Shown here piece after piece: positions 7,673 through 41,177 of a stretch of DNA of 64,000 nt. The stretch lies in NCBI GenBank assembly GCA_958296385.1, contig OY282494.1:1409416-1473415 (forward strand), given 5' to 3'. The notes below the pieces were generated by a model, which ran no database searches, was not told the origin of the DNA, and saw only the letters and a list, made by a program, of their open reading frames with translations. Numbering within the stretch: position 1 is the stretch's first letter; every line of letters begins with the position of its first letter. The DNA is from an uncultured Dehalococcoidia bacterium. Its GTDB lineage: Bacteria; Chloroflexota; Dehalococcoidia; Lucifugimonadales; UBA3495. A program made the translations under genes and the position numbers.

Positions 7673-8467
7673 TCATTGCGGGGAGTGATTAGGGGTTCGC
7701 AGGGTAATATCTCCGGCGGTTAAGGTCAACAGGGCGCCGTCGTCGGTGCGGAGGAGGAGGTTGCCGGAGTCGTCGACGTCCTCGGCGATGCCGACGGTGG
7801 TTTGGCCGTGGTGGGTTACGGTTACGCGCTGGCCGAGGGTGTTCAGCCAGCGGCGCCATTCGGGGATGGGCGATTTGCCGCGGGCGACGTCAAGGTAGAT
7901 GGCGTCCATGTCTTGCAGGATGCGGCGGAGCAGTTCGGCGCGGTCAACGGGGTTGGCGGCGAAGTGGTTGAGGCTGGCGGCGGTGGCGGCGATTTCGGGG
8001 TCGGCGGCAACGTCCAGGGCTACGTTGACGCCGATGCCGACGACGGCGTAGTCAACACGGGGGCCGGTCAGGGCGCTTTCGGCAAGGATGCCGGCTACTT
8101 TGAGGCCGTCAATGGTGACGTCGTTGGGCCACTTGACGGCGGGGGTGATGCCGGCTGCCCGTCGGATAGCGCGGGCTACGGCTACGCCGGCCAGTGGGCT
8201 AAGCAGGGGCAGGGCGCTGACGTCGGGGCGGAAAAGCACGGAGAAGTAGAGGTTGCCCGGTTCCGACCGCCAGCGGCGGCCCACCCGTCCCCGGCTGGCG
8301 GTTTGCGTTTCGGCAACGATTACCATGCCCTCGTCGGCGCCAGCGCGGGCCAGCTCCGCCGCATCGTCCATTGTGGAGGCGGTGGACTGGCAGTAGCGGA
8401 CGCGGCGGCCGATGATGCGGGTGTACAGGCCGCTGCGGAGCATTTGGGCAACGATGCTGCGGGGCAT
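7673..8467 (-). CDS. birA: Biotin--[acetyl-CoA-carboxylase] ligase
   Basis: Activates biotin with ATP and transfers it to the lysine of biotin carboxyl carrier protein. Family motifs are present: STASTMDDA for biotin contact, the nucleotide loop ASRGRVGRRW, KWPNDVTIDGLKVAGIL, and GIGVNVAL. A C-terminal SH3-like domain follows (about 215-260, QRVTVTHHGQTTVGIAEDVD). The protein has 264 residues and starts directly with the catalytic domain. It therefore lacks the N-terminal helix-turn-helix of repressor-type BirA and is not expected to regulate transcription. ATG 8467 is 21 bases from the glyS stop, consistent with co-transcription. Confidence 0.93.
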   Translation of the reverse strand: MPRSIVAQMLRSGLYTRIIGRRVRYCQSTASTMDDAAELARAGADEGMVIVAETQTASRGRVGRRWRSEPGNLYFSVLFRPDVSALPLLSPLAGVAVARAIRRAAGITPAVKWPNDVTIDGLKVAGILAESALTGPRVDYAVVGIGVNVALDVAADPEIAATAASLNHFAANPVDRAELLRRILQDMDAIYLDVARGKSPIPEWRRWLNTLGQRVTVTHHGQTTVGIAEDVDDSGNLLLRTDDGALLTLTAGDITLRTPNHSPQ

Positions 8468-18433: not shown

Positions 18434-18534
18434 CGGGCCGCCGTCGTGTTGGCGGCGCTGGCGTCCGAATCCGATGGGGATGCAAGCGGACGCCGGGAAC
18501 GACCCTGTTGGGCGCAGAGTGGGGTTCCAAGCAA

Positions 18535-18667
18535 CACCGGGTAGGTTTCCTGACTTGCGGGGGCGGCCAGCAGAGCTGCCGGCAAGTTCCCCGTTCACAG
18601 TGGCGCAACCGCGGCGGAATTACACCGCCTTCCCCATTAAGCCTGACAGGGATTGAGGCGCCCGGTG
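18535..18667 (-). promoter_or_regulatory. Cobalamin riboswitch aptamer
   Basis: Minus-strand sequence has the conserved blocks of the AdoCbl riboswitch. These are TTAATGGGGAAGGCGGTG, then the B12-box-like GCGCCACTGTGAACGGGG, then CCCCGCAAGTCAGGAAACC. A closing P1 helix CACCGGG/CCCGGTG pairs 18667-18661 with 18541-18535. It precedes cbiE and, through it, the cobN-cbtB-cbtA-chelatase string. Confidence 0.9.
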
Positions 18668-18860
18668 CCTGGGATTTGGCTGTTAAGGTTTTGCGGCAGA
18701 TGCCGCTGGCACAATGTAACCCGGCGGCGGTACGGTGTCAACCGGGGCCGGTCACTTGGGGCCAATCATTGTGGGGAATCCAGTCGCTGCGGGGGAAATC
18801 GGGGGCTTGTGGTAAAGTGGAGGTATGGTCAATCGGATTGGTTGATTGGAGGTATTTGAG

Positions 18861-20696
18861 ATGTTGATAAAAGTTGTTGGCGCGATAGTTGCCGCCGTTG
18901 TGGTTGCCGCCGTGGTGGTGGGCGTGGGGATGTGGCGGGGGCTGATTCCGGCGCCGGGGCCGCTGGCGTTTTTGATGATGGCCGGGGAGGAACCGGAATA
19001 CTCGGCGCGGTTTTACCCGGAGGATACGCTGGCCTACTCGTGGTTCACGCTGATGCCCGGCGGCGGGCAGCTCAGCGAGATGCGGGCGATTTGGAATCGG
19101 TTCAACGAGTACCCGGCCTTTGAGGACTTGATTGCCGAGGTGAAAGATGACTTTGACGCGGAAACGGGCATCGACTTTGACGCGGACGTGATGCCCTGGA
19201 TTGGCCCGGAGATTGCCGGCGGCCTGATTTCAATTGACTTTACGGAAAGCGAGGCCGCGCCGGACGAGGGTATGGAACCCTGGGAGGAGGTGCGGGCCGC
19301 CTTTACCATTGGCGTGCGCGACCGGGAGGCCGCCGCCGCGTTTATGGATAAATGGATAATCTACCTGCAAGATTCGGAGGGGACGACTTTTACGGCCGGC
19401 GCCGACCGGGGATTCAGCACCTGGGTTGACGAGGCCGACCGGCAGGCTTACGGGCTGTCGGATGAGTGGCTGGTGTTCGCGACCAGCGCAAGCACGCTGC
19501 AAGACATGATTGGCCGCATCGCCAGTGCCAGCGACGGAGCCGGCGCCGGCTCGCTGGCGGCCAATCCGAACTTTACGGCGGCGCGGGCGGCTTTGCCGGA
19601 ACGCCGGTTCAGCTCCGGCTACGTTGACCTCCAGCGGGCGAGTGAATCGCTGGAGGGGGATTTCTTTCCGGGCGGCGGCTTTGGAACTTTCGGGATGGCG
19701 GCTTTTGCCGACCAGAACGCCGAATGGGGCGCGGTCGCGGGGACGTGGGTGGAGCGGGGCGTGACTATGGAGATGGTGACGCCGGCGATTGCAGCGGCGG
19801 GCGGCGCCGGGCTGGATGGGCGCGTTTTGAGCGACCCGTCGCGTCTGCTGCCCGATGACACGCTGGGGTTTGCGGCGGCGGCTTACGACCCGGACGTTGA
19901 CAACTGGCGCACGGCGCTGCGGGAGTACCGGCTGGCCGACGTGCTGCCCTATCCGGGAATTGTGGAGCAAATCAACGCCGGGCTGGCCGGAATGACGCCG
20001 GGCGAGGCGGAGCTGGCCGACGACGCTACGCTGGCCGACGTGCTGGACTTGGGCTTTGAGCTGGCCAAAGACTTTACCGGCATTGACCTGGAGGGCGGTT
20101 TCTTTGACCATCTGGCCGGCGAACTGCTGCTGGCCGTCCGGGAGTTTAACTTTGACGCGGTGGAGGATGACCCGGCCAACAATCCGGTTCAGGCGATGCT
20201 GCTGCTGTCGTACCGGGAGGATGGCGCGGCCGGCTTGCAGGATACGATGAATGACATTACCGAGCTGGTGGACGGGTATCTGGCGCCGTTCGTGGAGAGC
20301 GGCACGGCCGACGTGGGCGGCGCGTCTGATGCGACGGTGTTCCGGGTGGACGGCGCGGGCTATTCGCCGGGGTACGTGCTGCACGACGGCTATCTGACCA
20401 TGGGCAGCACGACGGGCGCGCTGGCGGCCATCGTGGAACGGCAGAACGGCGGCGGGGCGGCGCTGACGGCCGAGGCCGAATATCAGCGCGCGGTGGGCTA
20501 TCTGGCCGAGGAACGGCAGTTTCTGGGCTACGTGAACATCAACCGAATTATCGGGCAGCTGGACCCGGACGACCTGGATATGGACCGGGACGAGTACCGG
20601 ATACTGGCCGAGGGGCTGGGCGTAGCGGCAATGGACGCCCGCAGCGACGGGGCTTACGACCGGGCAACGGCGGTGCTGACGCTGTTTCCGGAGTAG
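18861..20696 (+). CDS. DUF3352-type membrane-anchored protein
   Basis: A 611-residue protein with an N-terminal membrane anchor (VVGAIVAAVVVAAVVVGVGMW, about residues 4-24) and a large extracytoplasmic part. The pattern of paired domains with PEDTLAYSWFTLMPGG, WIGPEIAGGLISID and a later FDHLAGELLLAV matches DUF3352 proteins, common in Chloroflexota and of unknown function. ATG 18861 is supported by GGAGGT 7 bases upstream. The domain seems duplicated: PEDTLAYSWF and PDDTLGFAAAAYDP open the two halves. It is divergent from the riboswitch-controlled operon. No catalytic residues are evident. Confidence 0.75.
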   Translation: MLIKVVGAIVAAVVVAAVVVGVGMWRGLIPAPGPLAFLMMAGEEPEYSARFYPEDTLAYSWFTLMPGGGQLSEMRAIWNRFNEYPAFEDLIAEVKDDFDAETGIDFDADVMPWIGPEIAGGLISIDFTESEAAPDEGMEPWEEVRAAFTIGVRDREAAAAFMDKWIIYLQDSEGTTFTAGADRGFSTWVDEADRQAYGLSDEWLVFATSASTLQDMIGRIASASDGAGAGSLAANPNFTAARAALPERRFSSGYVDLQRASESLEGDFFPGGGFGTFGMAAFADQNAEWGAVAGTWVERGVTMEMVTPAIAAAGGAGLDGRVLSDPSRLLPDDTLGFAAAAYDPDVDNWRTALREYRLADVLPYPGIVEQINAGLAGMTPGEAELADDATLADVLDLGFELAKDFTGIDLEGGFFDHLAGELLLAVREFNFDAVEDDPANNPVQAMLLLSYREDGAAGLQDTMNDITELVDGYLAPFVESGTADVGGASDATVFRVDGAGYSPGYVLHDGYLTMGSTTGALAAIVERQNGGGAALTAEAEYQRAVGYLAEERQFLGYVNINRIIGQLDPDDLDMDRDEYRILAEGLGVAAMDARSDGAYDRATAVLTLFPE

Positions 20697-31712: not shown

Positions 31713-31732
31713 TGGGTTGGTTTGGGTTGGTT
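31713..31732. repeat. 10-bp x2 tandem duplication at the surface-protein stop
   Basis: tgggttggtt occurs twice without mismatch; the second copy overlaps the first two bases of the stop codon of the giant gene. Confidence 0.9.
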
Positions 31733-34700
31733 AGTATGCGGGGCGGCGGCGCCGGCGGTACATCAGGATGAGGATGATGAGGATGCCGAGGCCCAGCAGC
31801 CCGGCGTAGGCGATGAGGATGAGGCTCATCCCGGAAAGGCCGTCCGAGCTGGACGGGTCCAGGCTCCCGACGGCGGCGCCGGGAGCGCTTTCCGCAGGGG
31901 CGTAGTCCAGGGGTGGCGGGTCATCGCCAACGGCGGCGGCGGTGCAGCACTCGTCGGCCGGGGCATCGCCGGCGGCGGGGTGGCCGGCGGGCGGCGCCGG
32001 GGTGGGCGTGGTGGTGAGCGCGGGGAACGACAACCCGGAACCGGACGCGGAGGCCGCCCCTGCTGACTGGATCGCGGACGATCCCACCGGCACACGGGCG
32101 AACACCCGCGTGGGCATAGTCATCGGCGGTGGCGCCACCGTCGGGGCCGGCGTTGGGGCTGGCGTGGACATCGGCGGGGGCGTCGGTGTAGGCATCGGCG
32201 TGGGCGTCGGCCTCCAGTCGTCATCGTCGTCGTCATCATCATCGTTAACGGTTGGCGTCGTCGTCGCGGTCGGCGTCGTCGTCGCGGTTGGCGTTGGCGT
32301 GTCGGTTGGCGTTGGCGATGGCGTGGGCGTGGGCGTCGCGGTTGGCGGGGCCGCCGGCAAAACCCGAGTGTGCGGCTTGTCACGGTCGTCATCGTCGTCA
32401 TTGTCATCGTCATCGTCGTTGCTATCGTCGTCATCATCATCGATGTCGATCACGATGTCGCTGGGGGCGATGCTGTAGCTGCGGGCCGGGCCGTAGCTGG
32501 CGCCGGCGATGGCGTTGGCGGCGGGGGCGGACAGCGTGACGGTGAAATGCTCGGCGCTTTCGCTGTTGGCGTCGTGGGCTACGGTGAAAACGCAGCTGCT
32601 GGCGGTGTCGGTTACGGTAAAGCTGGCCGTTGCGGTCAGGCTGGCGAAGTCGGATGCGTCGGTTCCGGCCTGGCCGCCGGCGGTGTTGGGGGTGATGCTG
32701 CATTGGACGCTGCCGGCGGCGGCGGGGGCCTTGCTGCCGGCTACGCCGACGGTAAGGGTGCGGGCCGTTGCGTCGCCATCCTCGTTCAGCACAGCGCCGG
32801 CCGCCGGGCTGCTGATGGTGTAAGCGGGGCCGTCGCTATCGTCCGTCGGGGTGTCGTCATCGTTCGTCGGGGCGTCGCTGGCGGCGATGCGGTAGCTGCG
32901 GGCGGGGCCGTAGCTGGCGCCGGCGATGGCGCTGGAACTTGGCGCCGACAGCGTTACGGTGAAATGCTCCGCGCTTTCCGTATCCGTATCATCCGACACG
33001 GTGAATACGCAGGCGCCGGCGGTGTCGCTTGACGCGCCGGATGCGGTAAAGCTGGCGGTTGCGGTCAGGCTGGCGAAGTCGGCTGCGTCGGTTCCGGTTT
33101 GGCCGCCGGCGGTGTTGGGGGTGATGGCGCATTGGACGCTGCCGGCGGCGGCGGGCGCGCTGCTGCCGGTTACGCCGACGGTTAGCGTGCGGGCCGCGGC
33201 GTCGCCGTCCTCATTAAGGGCGGTATCGGCAGCGGGGCTGGTGATGGTGTAGGTGGGGGTGGGGGCGTCGCTGGCGGCGATGCGGTAGTTGCGCGCCGCG
33301 CCGTAGCTGGCCCCGCTGATGGCGTTGGCGGTTGGGGCCGACAGCGTAACCGTGAAATGCTCCGCGCTTTCCGTATCCGTATCAGCGGACACGGTGAATA
33401 CGCAGCTGCCGGCGGTGTCGGTTGCCGCGCCGGATGCGGTAAAGCTGGCCGTTGCGGTCAGGCTGGCGAAGTCGGCTGCGTCGGTTCCGGTTTGGCCGCC
33501 GGCGGTGTTGGCGGTGATGGTGCACAGCACGTTGCCGGCGGCGGCGGGCGCAATGCTGCCGGTTACGCCGACGGTTAGCGTGCGGGCCGCCAGGTTGCCA
33601 TCCTCATCAAGGGCGGTGTTGGCGGCGGGGCTGCTGATGCTGTAAGCGGGGCCGGCGTCGTTGTCCGATGAGTCGTCGTCGTCGTCCGCGGAGCCGTCGC
33701 TGGCGGCGATGCGGTAGCCGCGCGCCGCTCCGTAGGTGGCGCCGGCGATGGCGTTGGCCGTTGGCGCCGACAGCGTTACGGTGAAGTGCTCCGCGCTTTC
33801 CGTAGTGGAGTCATCGGACACGGTGAACACGCAGCTGCCGGTGGTGGTGGTGGTAAAGCTGGCCGTTGCGGTCAGGCTGGCGAAGTCGGATGCGTCGGTT
33901 CCGGCCTGGCCGCCGGCGGCGTTGGCGGTGATGGTGCACTGCACGCTGCCGGCGGCGCGGGGGGCCTTGCTGCCGGTTACGCCGACGGTTAGCGTGCGGG
34001 CCGCTGCGTTGCCGTCCTCGTCAAGGACGGCGCCGGCGGCCGGGCTGGTGATGGTGTAGGTGGGGCCGTCGCTGACGGCGATGCCGAAGTTGCGGGCCGC
34101 TCCGTAGCTGGCGGCGGCGATGGCGTTGGCAGTTGGGGCAGACAGCGTTACGGTGAAATGCTCGGCGCTTTCGTAGTCGGTGTCATCGGACACGGTGAAA
34201 ACGCAGCTGCCGGCGGTGTCGGTTGACGCGCCGGATGCGGTGAAACTGGCCGTTGCGGTCAGGCTGGCGAAGTCGGATGCGTCGGTTCCCGTCTGGCCGC
34301 CGGCGGTGTTGGCGGTGATGGCGCACTGGACGTTGCCGGCGGCCAATGGAGCTACACTGCCGGTTACGCCGACGGTTAGCGTGCGGGCCGCCAGGTTGCC
34401 GTCCTCGTCAAGGGCGGTATCGGCAGCGGGGCTGGTGATGGTGTACGTGGGGCCGTCGCTGATGGCGATGCCGAAGTTGCGCGGTGCGCCGTAGTCGGCG
34501 CCGAGGATGGCGCCGGAACCCGGGGCATCCAGCGTTACGGTGAAGTGCTCGGCGCTTTCGTAGTCGGTGTCGTCGGACACGGTGAATACGCAGCTGCTGG
34601 CGGTGTCGGTTTTGGTAAAGCTGGCGGTGGTGACGAGGCTGTCGAAGTCGTGTTTGTCGGTTCCCGTCCGGCCGCCGGCGGTGTTGGGGGTGATAGTGCA

Positions 34701-37700
34701 GCGCACGTCGCCGCTGCTCCCGGAGGGGGGCTCCCGGTCGCCGGTTACGCCGACGGTTAGCGTGCGGGCCGCCAGGTTGCCGTCCTCGTCCAGCACGGTA
34801 TCGGCGGCCGGGCTGGTGATGGTGTAGGTGGGGCCGTCGCTGGCGGCGATGCTGAAGTTGCGCGCCGGGCCGTAGCTGGCGCCGAAGATGGCGTTGCTGG
34901 CGGGAGCGGACAGCGTTACGGTGAAATGCTCGGCGTTTTCCACGTCGCTGTCGTCGGAAACGGTGAATACGCAGCTGCCGGTGGTGGACGAGCTGTTCGG
35001 GAAGTTGGCGGTTGCGGTCAGGCTGGCGAAGTCGGCTGCGTCGGTTCCCGTCCGGCCGCCGGCGGTGTTGGCGGTTATGGTGCATTGAACTTTGCCGGTA
35101 TCGGAGGGGCCCTCGCTGCCGGTTACGCCGACGGTCAGCGTGCGGGCCGTGGCATCGCCGTCCTCATCCAGCACGGTATCGGCGGCCGGGCTGGTGATGG
35201 TGTAGCGGGGGCCGTCGCTGGGGGCGATGCTGAAATGGCGGGCCGGGCCGTAGCTGGCGCCGGCGATGGTGTTGGCGTTGCTGGTGGGCGCAGACAGCGT
35301 TACGGTGAAGTGTTCGGCGCTTTCCACAGCAGAATCGTCGGCTATGGTGAACACGCAGCTGCCGGCGGTGTCGGTAGTGGTAAAGCGGGCGGTTGCGATG
35401 GGGCTGGCAAAGTCGGAGACGCTGGTTCCACTGCGCCCGCCGCCGGCGTTGGGGGATATGGTGCACAGCACGTCGCCGGCGGCGGCCGGCGTCTTGCTGC
35501 CGGTTATGCCCACGGTCAGCGTGCGCGCCGCCAGGTTGCCGTCCTCATCAATCGCGGTATCAGCGGCCGGGCTGGTGATAGTGTAGGTGAGGCCATCGCT
35601 GAGGGCGATGCTGAAGTTGCGCGCCGGACCGTAGCTGGCGCCGGTGATGCCGTTAGTCGTGGGGGAAACCAGCGAGACCTGGAAATGCTCGGCGCTTTCG
35701 TAGTCGGTGTCGTCGGACACGGTGAACACGCAGTTGGCGGCGGTGTCGGTTGACGCGCCGGATGCGGTAAAGCTGGCGGTGGCGGTCAGGCTGGCAAAGT
35801 CGGCGGCGTCGGTTCCGGTGCGGCCATCGCCGGGACGGGACTTGATGCGGCACAGCACGTCGCCGGCGGCGTCGGGGGCCTTGCTGCCGGTTACGCCGAC
35901 GGTCAGCGTGCGCGCGGCCGCGTTGCCGTCCTCGTCAATCACGGTATCGGCGGCGGGGCTGCTGATGGTGTAGCGCGGGCCGTCGCTGGGGGCGATGCTG
36001 AAGCTGCGGGCCGGGCCGTAGCTGGCGCCCGGGACGGCGCCGCTGCTGGGCGCAGACAGCGTAACGGTGAAATGCTCGGCGCCTTCAACGGTGTCGTCCT
36101 CGCTTACGTTGAATACGCAGATGCCGGCGGTGGCAGTGGTAACAAATCGCTGGGCGTTGGTGAGGCTGACAAAGTCGGCCGCGTCGGTTCCGGCCCGGCC
36201 GCCGGCGGTGTTGGCGGTGACGGTGCACTTGACGCTGCCGGCGGCGGAGGGGCCCTCGCTGCCGGTTATGCCGACGGTCAGCTTGCGGGCCGTCTCGTCC
36301 CCGTCCTCGTTCAGCGCGGTAGCAGCGGCCGGGCTGGTGATGGTGTAGTGGGGGCCGTCGCTGGGGGCGATGCTGAAGTTGCGGGCCGGGCCGTAGCTGG
36401 CCCCGGTGATGGCGGTGCCGCCGGTGATGTCTCTGGAGGGCGCGGACAGGGTGACGGTGAAGTGCTCGGCGTCCTCTATAATGGTGTCGTGCTGGATGAT
36501 GAATATGCAGTTGGCGGCGGTGTCGGTGGCGGAAAAGCTGGCGTTCGCGGTGAGACTGCTGGAAAAGTCGGCGTTGGAGGTTCCGGTTATCCCGCCGGCG
36601 GTGTTGTGCGTGAGAGTGCACCGCACGTGACCGTCGGCGCCCGGCGCCTTGCTGCCGGTTACGGTGACGTAGAGCCAGCGTCCCTGCGGGTTGCTGTCGT
36701 CCTCATTTATCACAGTATCAGCGGCCGGGCTGGTGATGGTGTAGCGCGGGCCGTCGCTGGGGGCGATGCTGAAGTTGCGGGCCGGGCCGTAGCTGGCCCC
36801 GGCGATGGCGGTGCTGCCGTCGATGGCAAGCACGGGCGCGGACAGCGTGATGGTGAAGTGCTCGGCGCCTTCTACAATGGTTTCGTCGGTGATGACAAAC
36901 CGGCAGGTGCTGGCGGTGTCGGTTGACGCGCCGCTGGCGGTAAATTGGGCGTCCGAAAAGTTGAGGATGCCGTCATTGAGACGATGGTCAGCTTCAATGT
37001 CGGATGTGGAGATGCCGGTTCTCCCGCCGGCGGTGTTGGACGTGAGCGTGCACCGCACGGCGCCGGCGTCGGCCGGCGCCTTGCTGCCGGTTACGCCGAC
37101 GGTCAGCGTGCGCGCCGCCTGGTTGCCGTCCTCGTCAATCGCGGTATCAGCGGCCGGGCTGGTGATGGTGTAGCGCGGGCCGTCGCTGGGGGCGATGCTG
37201 AAGTTGCGGGCCGGGCCGTAGGTGGCCCCGGCGATGGCGTTGCCGCCGATGGCAAGCAGGGGCGCGGACAGCGTGATGGTGAAGTGCTCGGCGCCTTCTA
37301 CAATGGTGTCGTGGGCGATGACAAACCGGCAGGTGCTGGCGGTGTCGGTTGACGCGCCGCTGGCGGTAAAGCTGGCGTCATCAAAGTTGAAGTTGCCTTG
37401 AAGGTCGTCGGATGTGGAGATGCCGGTTCTCCCGCCGGCGGTGTTGGACGTGAGAATGCACCGCACGACACCGGCGTCGGCCGGCGCCTTGCTGCCGGTT
37501 ATGCCGACGGTCAGCGTGCGCGCGGCCTGGTTGCCGTCCTCGTCAATCGCGGTACCAGCGGCCGGGCTGGTGATGGTGTAGCGCGGGCCGTCGCTGGCGG
37601 CGAGGCGGTCGTGGGGGCCGGGCGCAGCGTCGTAGGCGGCGCCGGCGGCAGTCTGCGCCTGGGCCTGGGCCGGGGGTGCGCCTCCGGAGAGCAAACCGGC

Positions 37701-37901
37701 AAAGAGGACGACGGCGGCCAGCAGGAACGGGGCGGCCAGCCACGCCAGCCGGGGCAGCCGGATATACCGGCGCAAGCGGGGTATGTCTATGTGATGACGG
37801 TAGGCGGCTATGGGGCGCGCCGTCGCGGGGCGCGTGCGGTCAGTGTCGGCAGTGGCCGGGGCAGCGGAAATAATCGGGGACGCAATAACGCTCCTGTCCA
37901 T
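31731..37901 (-). CDS. Giant surface protein with 13 Calx-beta-like repeats
   Basis: A 2056-residue surface protein. A basic N-terminus and signal anchor (LAWLAAPFLLAAVVLFAGLL, about 52-71) with a possible cleavage after AQA precede 13 repeats of about 125-145 residues (107-1814). Each repeat opens YTITSPAA..(D/N)EDG, contains two conserved Cys and ends ESAEHFTVTLSAP..YGPARNFSI, a Calx-beta-like beta-sandwich probably closed by a disulfide. Long Asp runs and a TP/TA-rich stalk follow. A C-terminal helix (MSLILIAYAGLLGLGILIIL) with an RRRRR tail stops transfer. Adhesion or a surface layer is inferred. ATG 37901 has GGAG 10 bases upstream; two partial copies of the 5' end lie upstream. Confidence 0.88.
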   Translation of the reverse strand: MDRSVIASPIISAAPATADTDRTRPATARPIAAYRHHIDIPRLRRYIRLPRLAWLAAPFLLAAVVLFAGLLSGGAPPAQAQAQTAAGAAYDAAPGPHDRLAASDGPRYTITSPAAGTAIDEDGNQAARTLTVGITGSKAPADAGVVRCILTSNTAGGRTGISTSDDLQGNFNFDDASFTASGASTDTASTCRFVIAHDTIVEGAEHFTITLSAPLLAIGGNAIAGATYGPARNFSIAPSDGPRYTITSPAADTAIDEDGNQAARTLTVGVTGSKAPADAGAVRCTLTSNTAGGRTGISTSDIEADHRLNDGILNFSDAQFTASGASTDTASTCRFVITDETIVEGAEHFTITLSAPVLAIDGSTAIAGASYGPARNFSIAPSDGPRYTITSPAADTVINEDDSNPQGRWLYVTVTGSKAPGADGHVRCTLTHNTAGGITGTSNADFSSSLTANASFSATDTAANCIFIIQHDTIIEDAEHFTVTLSAPSRDITGGTAITGASYGPARNFSIAPSDGPHYTITSPAAATALNEDGDETARKLTVGITGSEGPSAAGSVKCTVTANTAGGRAGTDAADFVSLTNAQRFVTTATAGICVFNVSEDDTVEGAEHFTVTLSAPSSGAVPGASYGPARSFSIAPSDGPRYTISSPAADTVIDEDGNAAARTLTVGVTGSKAPDAAGDVLCRIKSRPGDGRTGTDAADFASLTATASFTASGASTDTAANCVFTVSDDTDYESAEHFQVSLVSPTTNGITGASYGPARNFSIALSDGLTYTITSPAADTAIDEDGNLAARTLTVGITGSKTPAAAGDVLCTISPNAGGGRSGTSVSDFASPIATARFTTTDTAGSCVFTIADDSAVESAEHFTVTLSAPTSNANTIAGASYGPARHFSIAPSDGPRYTITSPAADTVLDEDGDATARTLTVGVTGSEGPSDTGKVQCTITANTAGGRTGTDAADFASLTATANFPNSSSTTGSCVFTVSDDSDVENAEHFTVTLSAPASNAIFGASYGPARNFSIAASDGPTYTITSPAADTVLDEDGNLAARTLTVGVTGDREPPSGSSGDVRCTITPNTAGGRTGTDKHDFDSLVTTASFTKTDTASSCVFTVSDDTDYESAEHFTVTLDAPGSGAILGADYGAPRNFGIAISDGPTYTITSPAADTALDEDGNLAARTLTVGVTGSVAPLAAGNVQCAITANTAGGQTGTDASDFASLTATASFTASGASTDTAGSCVFTVSDDTDYESAEHFTVTLSAPTANAIAAASYGAARNFGIAVSDGPTYTITSPAAGAVLDEDGNAAARTLTVGVTGSKAPRAAGSVQCTITANAAGGQAGTDASDFASLTATASFTTTTTGSCVFTVSDDSTTESAEHFTVTLSAPTANAIAGATYGAARGYRIAASDGSADDDDDSSDNDAGPAYSISSPAANTALDEDGNLAARTLTVGVTGSIAPAAAGNVLCTITANTAGGQTGTDAADFASLTATASFTASGAATDTAGSCVFTVSADTDTESAEHFTVTLSAPTANAISGASYGAARNYRIAASDAPTPTYTITSPAADTALNEDGDAAARTLTVGVTGSSAPAAAGSVQCAITPNTAGGQTGTDAADFASLTATASFTASGASSDTAGACVFTVSDDTDTESAEHFTVTLSAPSSSAIAGASYGPARSYRIAASDAPTNDDDTPTDDSDGPAYTISSPAAGAVLNEDGDATARTLTVGVAGSKAPAAAGSVQCSITPNTAGGQAGTDASDFASLTATASFTVTDTASSCVFTVAHDANSESAEHFTVTLSAPAANAIAGASYGPARSYSIAPSDIVIDIDDDDDDSNDDDDDNDDDDDRDKPHTRVLPAAPPTATPTPTPSPTPTDTPTPTATTTPTATTTPTVNDDDDDDDDDWRPTPTPMPTPTPPPMSTPAPTPAPTVAPPPMTMPTRVFARVPVGSSAIQSAGAASASGSGLSFPALTTTPTPAPPAGHPAAGDAPADECCTAAAVGDDPPPLDYAPAESAPGAAVGSLDPSSSDGLSGMSLILIAYAGLLGLGILIILILMYRRRRRPAY
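32150..32460. repeat. Low-complexity Asp-run and Thr-Pro coding tracts
   Basis: Trinucleotide-like gtc/atc runs (32220-32250, 32385-32455) encode Asp runs of the giant protein, and ggcgttggcgt-like hexamers between them encode its TP/TA stalk. Such tracts are prone to slippage and could vary stalk length. Confidence 0.85.
32460..37583. repeat. 13 tandem ~390-bp repeats inside the surface-protein gene
   Basis: Thirteen consecutive in-frame units with similar DNA as well as protein sequence, on average 394 bp. Units in the C-terminal half (for example those around 33.2-34.5 kb) are most alike, suggesting recent duplication or gene conversion there; the first three from the N-terminus are more diverged and longer. 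Confidence 0.9.
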
Positions 37902-37969
37902 CGTAGATGTGCTCCATCCAGGGTATGCGCCGGCCAGGCCGGCAACCCGTTACTCGGATAGGCTGTTGT

Positions 37970-38000
37970 GGAGGGCCGTTGCGTCTAGAGCAAGCCCTCC
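37970..38000 (-). promoter_or_regulatory. Leader hairpin, unit 1
   Basis: GGAGGGC (37970-37976) pairs with GCCCTCC (37994-38000) 69 bases upstream of the giant gene's ATG. Followed by the conserved GTTTAGG (CCTAAAC on minus). Function unknown; member of a set of three. Confidence 0.7.
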
Positions 38001-38281
38001 GGTGGTTTAGGGATGGACAGCAGGCCGGGGACGGCCGTTGGGGCGTGGGCCGGGGACGCGTCGCCGGAGGGCAAGTCGGCAAAGGGGACGGCCGGGGCAA
38101 CGAGCCGGCAAGCCGGCGAACCGCACGCACGGGCCAGCCGGTGCCGCCAGGCCAGACGGCGCAAGCGGGAGTGCCGGCGCGGGCAGTAGGTGCGGCGCCG
38201 CGCCGCCGGGGGGCGCGTCCGCGTCAACGGAGATGCGTAGGTGGCAAAGATGATAGGGGATGCTAAAGCTCCCGTTTCCAT
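37985..38281 (-). pseudogene. Truncated second copy of the surface-protein N-terminus
   Basis: A 98-codon frame starting METGALASPIIFA, aligning with MDRSVIASPIISA of the giant protein and continuing through the Arg-rich segment (HSRLRRLAW versus RYIRLPRLAW). The hydrophobic core is interrupted by Arg (RHRLARACGSPACRL), and the frame ends inside unit 1's hairpin as PKPPEGLL. No repeat domain follows. The upstream sequence (GGAG, ATCTGCG before ATG) also matches unit 1. It is most likely a remnant of a tandem duplication of the leader and signal region; expression as a short peptide cannot be excluded. Confidence 0.6.
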
Positions 38282-38358
38282 CGCAGATCGGGCTCCATAC
38301 TGGAGAAGGGATACCGGCCAGGCGGCGGTCGGCGGCCCGGTAAGGGAAAGGCTGTCGG

Positions 38359-38391
38359 GGAGGGCCTCTGCGGTTCTAGAGCAGGCCCTCC
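38359..38391 (-). promoter_or_regulatory. Leader hairpin, unit 2
   Basis: GGAGGGCCT (38359-38367) pairs with AGGCCCTCC (38383-38391), 78 bases upstream of the truncated copy starting at 38281. Loop sequence ttctagag resembles unit 1. Confidence 0.7.
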
Positions 38392-38822
38392 GGCCGTTTA
38401 GGGATGGCGTGGCCCGAGTCATGCCGGGGAGGGACGCCGAACAAGACGTCTGCGATGGATGGGCCGCCCGCAATAGGGACGCGGGTCGCCGGCCGGTCAA
38501 AGGCCGGGGCGAAGTGAAAGCGAGGACGGAATCCGGGGCCGTGGCCGGCACACAAGGGGTCGTCGTCGCGCAGCTCAATGGCGGCAGTGGCATTGCCGGC
38601 GGGGGTTTGCGCTGGGGCCGGGGGCGTGTCGTCGGGCAGCCGGTCGGCAAAGGAAAGGGCCGGGGCCAGCGGACGCGGCAATGCGGTCAGTTGGGGCCGG
38701 CGAGTAGGGGGGCGCAAACGGGGCTTACTGTGCCGGGATGAAGATTGGGGGCGCTCCGTCAGGGAACGGGTCGGAGAGGGAGTAATAGTACAATACGGGG
38801 GTACAATACCATCCTTGTCCAT
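38376..38822 (-). pseudogene. Truncated third copy of the surface-protein N-terminus
   Basis: A 148-codon frame starting MDKDGIVPPY. Similarity to the giant protein is clear later: RLRPPTRRPQLTALPRPLAP aligns with RRYIRLPRLAWLAAPFLLA, and DDTPPAPAQTPAGNA with GGAPPAQAQAQTAAGAA. The signal-anchor core is weakened by Pro and Arg. It ends in unit 2's hairpin as PKRPEGLL, the same terminal sequence as the second copy. Its 5' context TGGAG..ATCTACGATGGAC is nearly identical to unit 1. Interpreted as the oldest of three tandem leader/signal copies, probably decayed. Confidence 0.55.
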
Positions 38823-38889
38823 CGTAGATCTACTCCATTCAACGAGGAGGGGCGGCCACGCGGCGGCCCGGGATCGGACAGGGTATTGG

Positions 38890-38920
38890 GTAGGGCCACT
38901 GTGCTAAGCGCAGGCCCTAC
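38890..38920 (-). promoter_or_regulatory. Leader hairpin, unit 3 (compensatory change)
   Basis: GTAGGGCC (38890-38897) pairs with GGCCCTAC (38913-38920). Relative to units 1 and 2 the G-C pair has become T-A on both sides, preserving the stem. 68 bases upstream of the third copy's ATG. Confidence 0.7.
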
Positions 38921-39142
38921 TGTGGTTTAGGTATAGCGTGCAGCGTTACAGTTCGGTTCAGCGTATCGTACTCGGTGGCGTGGCTGCTGTGGTCGCGATA
39001 ATTCCGGCCAGATTTATAGTGGTGCCGACAGCGTTCGCTGCGGCGTATTCTCCGGCTAGTTGATGTGGATTTGTCAAGCAGCATCGGTAACGAAATTCAG
39101 CGTAATCGGGGCAAGTAAAGCGCACTTTGGCGCATAGGCCGG

Positions 39143-39171
39143 ATTGTAGGGGGTGGATTGCGCCGTGTCAA
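39143..39171 (-). promoter_or_regulatory. Promoter upstream of the triplicated leader region
   Basis: Minus-strand TTGACA (39171-39166), 17-base spacer, TACAAT (39148-39143): near-consensus. It points toward the three leader units and the giant gene, 1.24 kb before the latter's ATG. The stretch 38930-39136 in between shows no gene. Confidence 0.7.
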
Positions 39172-39302: not shown

Positions 39303-40127
39303 ATGACCACCACCATCGCAAACCCCAGCACCCCCATCGCCGTCAAAACGCCGCCACCGCCGGCCCCGGAACCTTTCCGGTTTCCGGAGCCGCCCGACCG
39401 TGAGATTGATGAGTCAATGACTAACCAGCGACAACTGACCTATACGGGCCACTGCCACCACCTCGTCCGGTATCTCGGCAATGAGGAGACCACTCTGGTC
39501 ACCACGGACCTTTGGATTGCGCGCGGGCCGCGCCCCGGCACTAGCGGCTTGCGCCGCCCCGATTTGCTCGTCGCTTTTGACGTTGACCCGCAGGCTTACC
39601 ACTCCACCCGGGGTTATCTAATCTCGGAGCAGGGCAAGCCGCCGGATTTTGTGCTGGAGGTAGCATCGCCAAGCACGGCGAAGGTGGACGTTGAGGAGAA
39701 GCCGGCTGATTACGCGGGGCTGGGCATCCTGGAGTACTGGCGCTTTGACGAGACGGGGGATTCTCACGGAGTGCGGCTGGCTGGAGACCGTTTGGTGAAT
39801 GGCCGGTATGAGCCCATCCCCATTGTGGAATTGCCGGACGGTTCTTTGCAGGGCTACAGCCCCGTGCTAAACGTGTACCTGCGGTGGGAGCCCGTGCAAG
39901 GGGAGCAGGGTATGTTGGGCTGGTACGACCCGGAAACGGGCCAACACATCCCGACGTTTGACGAGCGGCAGGAAGCTTTCCTCCGCGAGCGGGAGGACCG
40001 CCTCCGAGCCGAGGCCCGCACCGAACAAGCCGAGGCCCGCGCCGAGCAGGAACGCGACGCACGCTTGCAGGCTGAGGCCCAGGTTCGCGAAATGCAGGAG
40101 GAGCTGCGGCGGCTGCGCGGCGGTTAG
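39303..40127 (+). CDS. Uma2-family (DUF820) PD-(D/E)XK protein, copy 1
   Basis: A 274-residue Uma2-family protein, a restriction-endonuclease-like fold of unknown cellular role. The catalytic constellation is present: LRRPDLLVAFDV (Asp), PDFVLEVASPST (Glu), then EEKPADYAGLGILEYWRFD (Lys and the family's YxxxGIxEYW). The last 60 residues form an Arg/Glu/Ala-rich coiled coil (RLRAEARTEQAEARAEQE). ATG 39303 follows a GAGG leader. It is 69 percent-like in layout to copy 2 directly downstream, with the promoter block also copied. Such proteins are often numerous in cyanobacteria and Chloroflexota; nuclease activity here is inferred. Confidence 0.85.
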   Translation: MTTTIANPSTPIAVKTPPPPAPEPFRFPEPPDREIDESMTNQRQLTYTGHCHHLVRYLGNEETTLVTTDLWIARGPRPGTSGLRRPDLLVAFDVDPQAYHSTRGYLISEQGKPPDFVLEVASPSTAKVDVEEKPADYAGLGILEYWRFDETGDSHGVRLAGDRLVNGRYEPIPIVELPDGSLQGYSPVLNVYLRWEPVQGEQGMLGWYDPETGQHIPTFDERQEAFLREREDRLRAEARTEQAEARAEQERDARLQAEAQVREMQEELRRLRGG

Positions 40128-40135
40128 TCGGGGAT

Positions 40136-40205
40136 GTTCAGGGCAATTTTGCGAACGTTCTGTCAACCGGCACCGCCGGCCGCCGCCAAACCCGCTATAA
40201 TGCGC
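40136..40205 (+). promoter_or_regulatory. Conserved upstream block of Uma2 copy 2
   Basis: Same elements as the block before copy 1: caattttgcg, ttctgtcaaccgg, ccgccggccgccg and TATAAT at 40196-40201, starting 8 bases after the copy 1 stop. Confidence 0.6.
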
Positions 40206-40274
40206 CGCAAGCATCCCGTCCCATCCGGCGCAACGGCCCATCCACCCCGCCGGTTTCCAGAGGTGAGGTTCAGT

Positions 40275-41177
40275 ATGACCACCACCACAAACATCACTAC
40301 CGCCAAAACGCCGCTGGCGCCACCGTCCCCGCCGCCGCTGCCGCCAGCCCCGGGCCCTTTCCGGTTCCCGGACCCACCCGAACGCGAGCTCGATGAAATG
40401 ACCAGCTTCAGACAACTGCACAAGACCGGCCACAGCCACCACCTGAGCCAGCACCTGGGCAACGAGGATACCACCCTGGTGGGCGCCGACCTTTGGATTG
40501 CCCTCGCGCCCCGCTCCGGCACCAGAGGACTGCGCCGCCCCGACTTGCTCATCGCCTTTGACGTCGACCCGGCCGCCTACGATGCCACTGGGGGTTATCT
40601 AATATCGGAGCAGGGCAAGCCACCGGACTTTGTGCTGGAGGTGGCATCGGTAAGCACGGCCCGCGTGGACGTGGAGCAAAAGCCGATTGACTACGCGGCG
40701 CTGGGTATCCTGGAATACTGGCGCTTTGACGAAACCGGGGCGTTTCACGGCAAGCGGCTGGCCGGCGACCGTTTGGTGAATGGCAAGTATGTGCCCATCC
40801 CCATTGAGGAACTGCCCGACGGCTCTTTGCAGGGGTACAGCCCGGCGCTGAACCTGTACCTGCGAGCGGAACACGGCCAGCTGGGTTGGTACGACCCGGA
40901 AACCGGACGCCACATCGCAACCTTCAACGATGAACGAGCCGGCCGCCTCCGCGCCGAAGCCCGCGCAGACCAGGCCGAAGCCCGTGCGGACGAGGAACAC
41001 GAAGCCCGCCTCCAGGAACGCGAAGCCCGCACCCAGGCTGAGGCCCGCAGCGAACAGGAACGCGAAGCCCGCCTCCAGGAACGCGAAGCCCGCGTACAGG
41101 CTGAGGCCCGCACCCAGCAGGCTGAGGCCCAGGTTCGCGAAATGCGGGAGGAGCTGCGGCGGCTCCGCGGCGGTTAG
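40275..41177 (+). CDS. Uma2-family (DUF820) PD-(D/E)XK protein, copy 2
   Basis: A 300-residue tandem paralog of the preceding gene. It keeps the nuclease-like residues (LRRPDLLIAFDV, PDFVLEVASVST, EQKPIDYAALGILEYWRFD). Its C-terminal coiled coil is longer, with extra units of REARLQEREARxQAEARxEQ, and the DNA at about 40960-41140 is correspondingly repetitive. ATG 40275 has AGGTGAGG about 8 bases upstream. Change in coiled-coil length is the main difference between the copies, so the domain may set oligomer or partner spacing. Cellular role unknown. Confidence 0.85.
   Translation: MTTTTNITTAKTPLAPPSPPPLPPAPGPFRFPDPPERELDEMTSFRQLHKTGHSHHLSQHLGNEDTTLVGADLWIALAPRSGTRGLRRPDLLIAFDVDPAAYDATGGYLISEQGKPPDFVLEVASVSTARVDVEQKPIDYAALGILEYWRFDETGAFHGKRLAGDRLVNGKYVPIPIEELPDGSLQGYSPALNLYLRAEHGQLGWYDPETGRHIATFNDERAGRLRAEARADQAEARADEEHEARLQEREARTQAEARSEQEREARLQEREARVQAEARTQQAEAQVREMREELRRLRGG

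Follow-up and report, generated by a model that had tools for sequence, protein, structure and literature searches.

The region upstream of the giant surface-protein gene contains three units in tandem, and we favor, with a probability of roughly 60%, an origin in a captured RNA leader that was tandemly duplicated, with unit C as the one working copy and units A and B as upstream relics. The units would be diverged copies of the 5' end of a single surface-protein gene, each comprising a leader and a signal-coding start. The leader would descend from a genus-specific element with the hairpins P2, P3, and P4 (the SAR202 P2-P3-P4 element), whose last loop carries the anti-Shine-Dalgarno sequence CCCUCCUCCC and whose intact forms adjoin SBP_bac_6-type genes. 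Replacement of the terminal anti-Shine-Dalgarno hairpin by a ribosome-binding site would have turned the element into an ordinary 5' untranslated region. Unit C would thus serve the giant gene as a functional leader of ordinary type, while A and B would stem from two rounds of tandem duplication. Both have the promoter at 39171-39143 on their 5' side and the gene on their 3' side, and they are probably transcribed with it.

The window, i.e., the whole stretch of 64,000 nucleotides analysed here (G000:C1:1409416-1473415), belongs to a genome assembled as a single contig of 3.30 Mb. Its amidase gene shares 81-83% identity with the amidase of SAR202 / Dehalococcoidia MAGs. In the same-genus genomes examined, which are close relatives with a readable neighbourhood, the slot between trpA and the amidase gene lacks the giant gene, so the gene and its units are a local insertion of this lineage. 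The region consists of the following features.

39303-41177, plus strand: pair of neighbouring Uma2-family genes that flank the units and are oriented divergently from them
39143-39171, minus strand: promoter-like TTGACA-17-TACAAT reading into unit A (11/12 consensus matches, 0.3 expected by shuffling)
38823-38940, minus strand: unit A leader with CCTAAAC, P2, P3, a C-rich CCCCTCCTC remnant, ATGGAG, and ATCTACG; the best match of leader D in the window
38890-38920, minus strand: hairpin P2 of unit A, GTAGGGCC/GGCCCTAC
38376-38822, minus strand: frame A, 148 aa, probable relic without a hydrophobic signal core, closing with PKRPEGLL inside unit B's P2 loop
38282-38411, minus strand: unit B leader, ATCCCTTCTCC remnant kept
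38359-38391, minus strand: hairpin P2 of unit B, GGAGGGCC/GGCCCTCC
37985-38281, minus strand: frame B, 98 aa, probable relic without a hydrophobic core, closing with PKPPEGLL inside unit C's P2 loop
37902-38020, minus strand: unit C leader, preceding the intact gene; start codon predicted to be paired, fold z = -5.2
37970-38000, minus strand: hairpin P2 of unit C, GGAGGGCT/GGCCCTCC
31731-37901, minus strand: giant surface protein, 2056 aa, with signal peptide, 13 Calx-beta-type repeats, Pro/Thr/Asp low-complexity stalk, and C-terminal membrane anchor

The leaders of units A, B, and C start at 38940, 38411, and 38020 on the minus strand, resulting in a spacing of 529 and 391 bp, and their ATG start codons lie at 38822, 38281, and 37901. 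This confirms the original prediction of three tandem copies of leader, hairpin, and coding start upstream of the giant gene, of which only the proximal one leads into the 13-repeat protein. All units share CCTAAAC, the hairpin, the purine-rich ATGGAG, and ATCTnCGATGGA, and they are 66-82% identical to each other. The leaders (74-82% identity) are closer than the coding parts (66-76%) in all three pairs: 77.5 versus 66.2%, 74.1 versus 67.3%, and 81.6 versus 76.0% (p = 0.04, 0.25, and 0.27). A scan of the 3.3 Mb genome with two unit patterns gave no matches beyond the three units, and a DNA similarity search of the genome gave no strong matches besides them, the copies matching each other with E 1.6e-16 and 9.8e-10. 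Among 60 relatives, a DNA search with the leader returned nothing exceeding chance.

The P2 stem reads GGAGGGC/GCCCTCC in units B and C and GTAGGGC/GCCCTAC in unit A. The predicted pairing with one two-sided compensatory change (G-C to U-A) thus holds, and is accompanied by one wobble change (G-C to G-U). Stems of 8 bp with loops of 12-20 nt are found at 0.35% of window positions, yet one occupies the same place in all three units. Stem columns are variable in 3/16 cases, compared to 49/109 columns in the rest of the leader (p = 0.06). A search of the units against Rfam 15 gave no match up to E 5; relaxing the limit to E 10 added nothing but a chance miRNA match, on the opposite strand. A GEMM riboswitch, suggested by the CCTAAAC start, is likewise without Rfam support. 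An intrinsic terminator or attenuator was also rejected, as P2 of none of the units forms a G+C-rich hairpin followed by a U run.

A covariance search for the hairpin elsewhere, proposed along with the original prediction, led to a family of related elements. A covariance model of the three unit leaders (R1) gave one further match in 60 genomes, namely leader D (G000:C1:2676623-2676741, at 2.677 Mb; 25.8 bits, E 0.028). Leader D is strongly structured (fold z = -5.5) and located directly 5' of an SBP_bac_6-type ABC binding-protein gene. On the flanks of ABC binding-protein orthologues R1 detected D only, and the family was revealed by R2, which was built on the three units plus D, and by R3, a model of the 13 natural members alone with the window units left out. 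R2 clearly matches relatives (E down to 1.2e-12) but is mostly driven by D, and the link between the units and D was therefore tested separately. When D was compared with 1064 window tiles of 240 bases, units A, C, and B occupied the top three places with scores of 54, 47, and 45, the best non-unit tile reaching 37. R3 finds the units in place and in phase, if weakly, at 11.2, 7.8, and 4.4 bits, where the score of unit A is not significant alone and C is borderline (E 0.04 in 1.6 kb); all of these models rest on few sequences, and their E-values are rough. R3 also gives a weak match at 7818-7923 of the window, minus strand (15.5 bits, E 0.037 in 477 kb), which is probably due to chance. The units are homologous to leader D and, as far as the alignments indicate, to the natural members of the family. 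In all three, the invariant UAGCGGC loop of P2 and the complete P4 with its AYCCCUCCUCCC loop are altered, and the units are derived, not intact, members.

The natural element spans about 110 nt and is composed of an A-rich start, P2, a small P3, and P4. The P2 loop carries the invariant UAGCGGC, the P4 loop corresponds to AYCCCUCCUCCC, an anti-Shine-Dalgarno motif, and some leaders feature a C-rich P3 loop too. The P2 and P4 helices covary, with two-sided changes in 11 of 22 pairs across the 13 natural members; the observed score was reached by 0/500 shuffles, and sliding the helix partners abolishes the covariation. Within our sample of 14 genomes of the genus, a clear copy is present in 11, and two more (G007, G009) carry it weakly. 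The proposed selection on the hairpin is thereby borne out, and its occurrence in other genomes holds at the level of the family, while the exact unit is species-specific.

The element occurs in two settings. As a 5' leader (D in G000, and in G001, G003, G005, G006, and G012), it usually starts 35-39 nt past a TTGACA-17-TAATTT-like (sigma70-like) promoter, which is weak in G005, and is followed by the binding-protein gene (D) or by an operon led by an LPG-synthase/phosphodiesterase/glycosyltransferase fusion gene. As a 3' tail (G001, G002, G004, G005, G010, G011, and G013; weakly G007 and G009), it overlaps the final codons of a binding-protein paralogue, and in the cases read the stop codon of this gene is the P2-loop TAG. 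An intact element of G003 (G003:C57; L184:2443-2555) lies between genes, with a wholly different but paired P2 stem and no adjoining binding-protein gene seen, which means that the structure does not simply follow from coding. The usual partners of the hairpin are SBP_bac_6-type ABC binding-protein genes and their operons. The predicted surface-protein leader is a duplicated leader at this locus, but the hairpin is not specific to surface proteins. Under strict filters that may miss diverged copies, 393 genomes of the class, few of them members of the genus, gave no further clear copy outside G000. Matches in other genera at 19-24 bits are probably chance, and the one inspected (L185) falls within a coding frame. 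A conserved leader peptide M-K-x-I-G-G-L-L, noted by eye in the 5'-type leaders, has a start codon in only some of them and is unsupported.

Compared to this element, the window units retain the P2 and P3 pairing, while the 3' arm of P4 is missing from all three and replaced by ATGGAGnnnATCTnCGATGGA, a new ribosome-binding site. What remains of the C-rich loop is CCCCUCCUC in unit A and AUCCCUUCUCC in unit B; unit C has neither. On the minus strand near the units, 39171-39143 is the sole good promoter, with none between the units, and transcription may run from there through all of them. The hairpins might act on translation or transcript stability. Burial of the ribosome-binding site in cis was rejected, as 31, 45, and 91 of 200 shuffled leaders were at least as buried, which is not beyond chance. 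If the proposed replacement took place, the units would provide an example of such an RNA element turning into an ordinary gene leader.

The frames downstream of leaders A and B were predicted to end in matching tails, PKRPEGLL and PKPPEGLL. These tails are real, but they do not constitute independent evidence: IPKRPEGLL and IPKPPEGLL are the following unit's leader (ATCCCTAAAC..GGAGGGC..CTCTAG) read in frame, and they match because each frame continues into the unit that follows, as far as the TAG in its P2 loop. The 17-residue hydropathy maximum is 1.26 in A, 1.10 in B, and 2.58 in C, so that a normal signal core is found in C only. Lacking this core, A and B look like duplication relics, which supports the suggested remnant of leader duplication. 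In a MAFFT alignment, every indel in the coding parts of the three units has a length divisible by three, and dN/dS (NG86) is near 1 for A-B, about 0.8 for B-C, and about 0.5 for A-C. These patterns point to A and B as former coding starts now in decay, with B the clearer case. Frame A may have been coding long after the duplication, given the multiple-of-three indels and the A-C ratio.

The genome encodes a further surface-type frame of 7915 aa (G000:C1:2203993 onward; L109, 2.20 Mb), in which a cadherin-like domain at the N-terminus is accompanied by one or more Calx-beta-like repeats; a related leader was looked for upstream of it and none was found. The tail of frame A aligns to its cadherin-like start with a score of 47, reached by 1/1000 shuffles. 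A cadherin-like identity of this tail, suggestive in the pairwise alignment, was rejected, as a two-sequence profile ranks A second of 2001 with a non-significant E of 1.2.

A second, truncated copy of the element lies at 1.68 Mb (L176; G000:C1:1679683-1679827). This 116-nt piece of leader D is 94% identical, reaches the start-codon region, and sits about 440 nt 5' of a surface-type gene with He_PIG repeats. The element thus does become duplicated 5' of surface-protein genes, and capture is a reasonable explanation for how the window array arose. Fused to the piece is a Uma2 region; one of the two Uma2 genes next to the window units lies in sequence 90% identical to it, and the region 39303-41177 matches it at 77-90% identity. 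The Uma2 genes may travel with the element sites or target them.

The C-rich-loop small RNAs ar14, ar7, sX13, and CcsR1 give sub-threshold Rfam matches in register with the intact elements. To our knowledge, riboregulation in uncultured Chloroflexota has hardly been described. Metatranscriptomics has a concrete target here in an RNA element that shows covariation, carries a loop with complementarity to ribosome-binding sites, is not represented in Rfam 15, and is linked to transporter genes across a single genus. The ar14 model (RF02344) aligns over the whole intact element (31.4 bits, E 1.6e-4 for 201 nt). This best score is below the gathering cut-off of 58.8, and the window units are unmatched. 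Among known systems, the alpha-r14 sRNAs (NfeR1) and the 'cuckoo' RNA family, both alphaproteobacterial, come closest; alpha-r14 carries the anti-Shine-Dalgarno motif CCUCCUCCC in the loops of hairpins with variable stems (PMC10746234; PMC3927594). The SAR202 element resembles them in its consecutive hairpins, variable stems, and CCCUCCUCCC in the last loop. In contrast, alpha-r14 is defined by three hairpins each with the motif (PMC10746234), whereas the SAR202 element, from a different phylum, has three hairpins with the motif invariant in P4 only and UAGCGGC in the P2 loop. By score and motif number, the element falls outside alpha-r14.

CcsR1-4 of Rhodobacter sphaeroides (RF02791) share the CCUCCUCCC loop motif and form a processed operon with tandem homologous copies in one transcript (PMC10253847); SAR202 elements reach 18.4 and 14.5 bits against a cut-off of 65.3, and the window units differ in being fused to coding starts and mostly lacking the motif. 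Among the silencing targets of NfeR1 are mRNAs of periplasmic ABC components (PMC10746234), and the AbcR RNAs, tandem homologues with anti-Shine-Dalgarno loops, repress ABC binding-protein mRNAs (PMC3712013), the kind of gene that SAR202 elements adjoin. AbcR1/AbcR2 show no sequence or model match to the SAR202 element, which lies beside the gene (cis) and not elsewhere (trans). By analogy, we postulate that the element probably acts like these anti-Shine-Dalgarno RNAs, in cis or trans. If so, the anti-SD-loop design of alphaproteobacteria would also exist in a distant phylum, where it may have arisen independently.

Several other readings assign the units a different role. The genus's own anti-Shine-Dalgarno RNA could have been copied at least twice in front of giant surface genes, in the window and at 1.68 Mb, bringing the same RNA control with it and leaving the tandem units active; we regard this as unlikely. 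The single good promoter 5' of all units, the retention of P2 in 3/3 copies, its reduced stem variability, and the C-rich loop parts in A and B would also suit the serial RNA suggested originally, with three co-transcribed hairpin units working in series, whether as repeated regulatory RNAs, for which CcsR1-4 offer a precedent (PMC10253847), or in controlling the giant gene. Such a serial RNA is unlikely, however, as unit C has no C-rich loop, the ribosome-binding sites are no better buried than in shuffled leaders, the family's invariant loop is not kept, and the stem conservation is borderline. The weak R3 scores of the units, the loss or alteration of the invariant TAGCGGC loop and the P4 hairpin, and the signs of prolonged coding in frame A speak against the captured leader that we prefer.

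The coding history indicated by the frame-preserving indels and the A-C dN/dS, together with the resemblance of the A tail to the 7915-aa protein, could also stem from an array of three surface-protein genes in which deletions removed the bodies behind A and B, as opposed to duplication of the 5' end only. We consider this unlikely: the profile result for A is not significant, no body sequence lies behind A or B, and with the locus absent from relatives no intermediate is visible. A silent store of leader/signal cassettes for recombination could draw on the other surface-protein genes of the genome, at 2.20 Mb and, with the truncated element upstream, at 1.68 Mb. This part of the original prediction is very improbable, as no second locus in this genome or the searched relatives carries the N-terminal segments, and a copy divergence of 18-34% implies that gene conversion is not active. 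Chance or an assembly artefact is refuted here for practical purposes by the one-contig genome, the same divergence, and the E-values between the copies.

Tandem duplication of a captured leader, our preferred reading, concerns a gene that resembles surface proteins with Calx-beta repeats (PF03160) in its 13 such repeats but differs in its N-terminal segment. In the genus and in 393 genomes of the class, this protein segment was found in G000 only, bar one marginal match. Searches of phage records and viral contigs gave no match. A 38% match to the N-terminal segment at window position 18873 lies in an unrelated gene and is due to chance similarity between hydrophobic stretches. The sole Rfam riboswitch match elsewhere in the window is a cobalamin riboswitch (RF00174) at 18523-18680 on the minus strand, with 67 bits.
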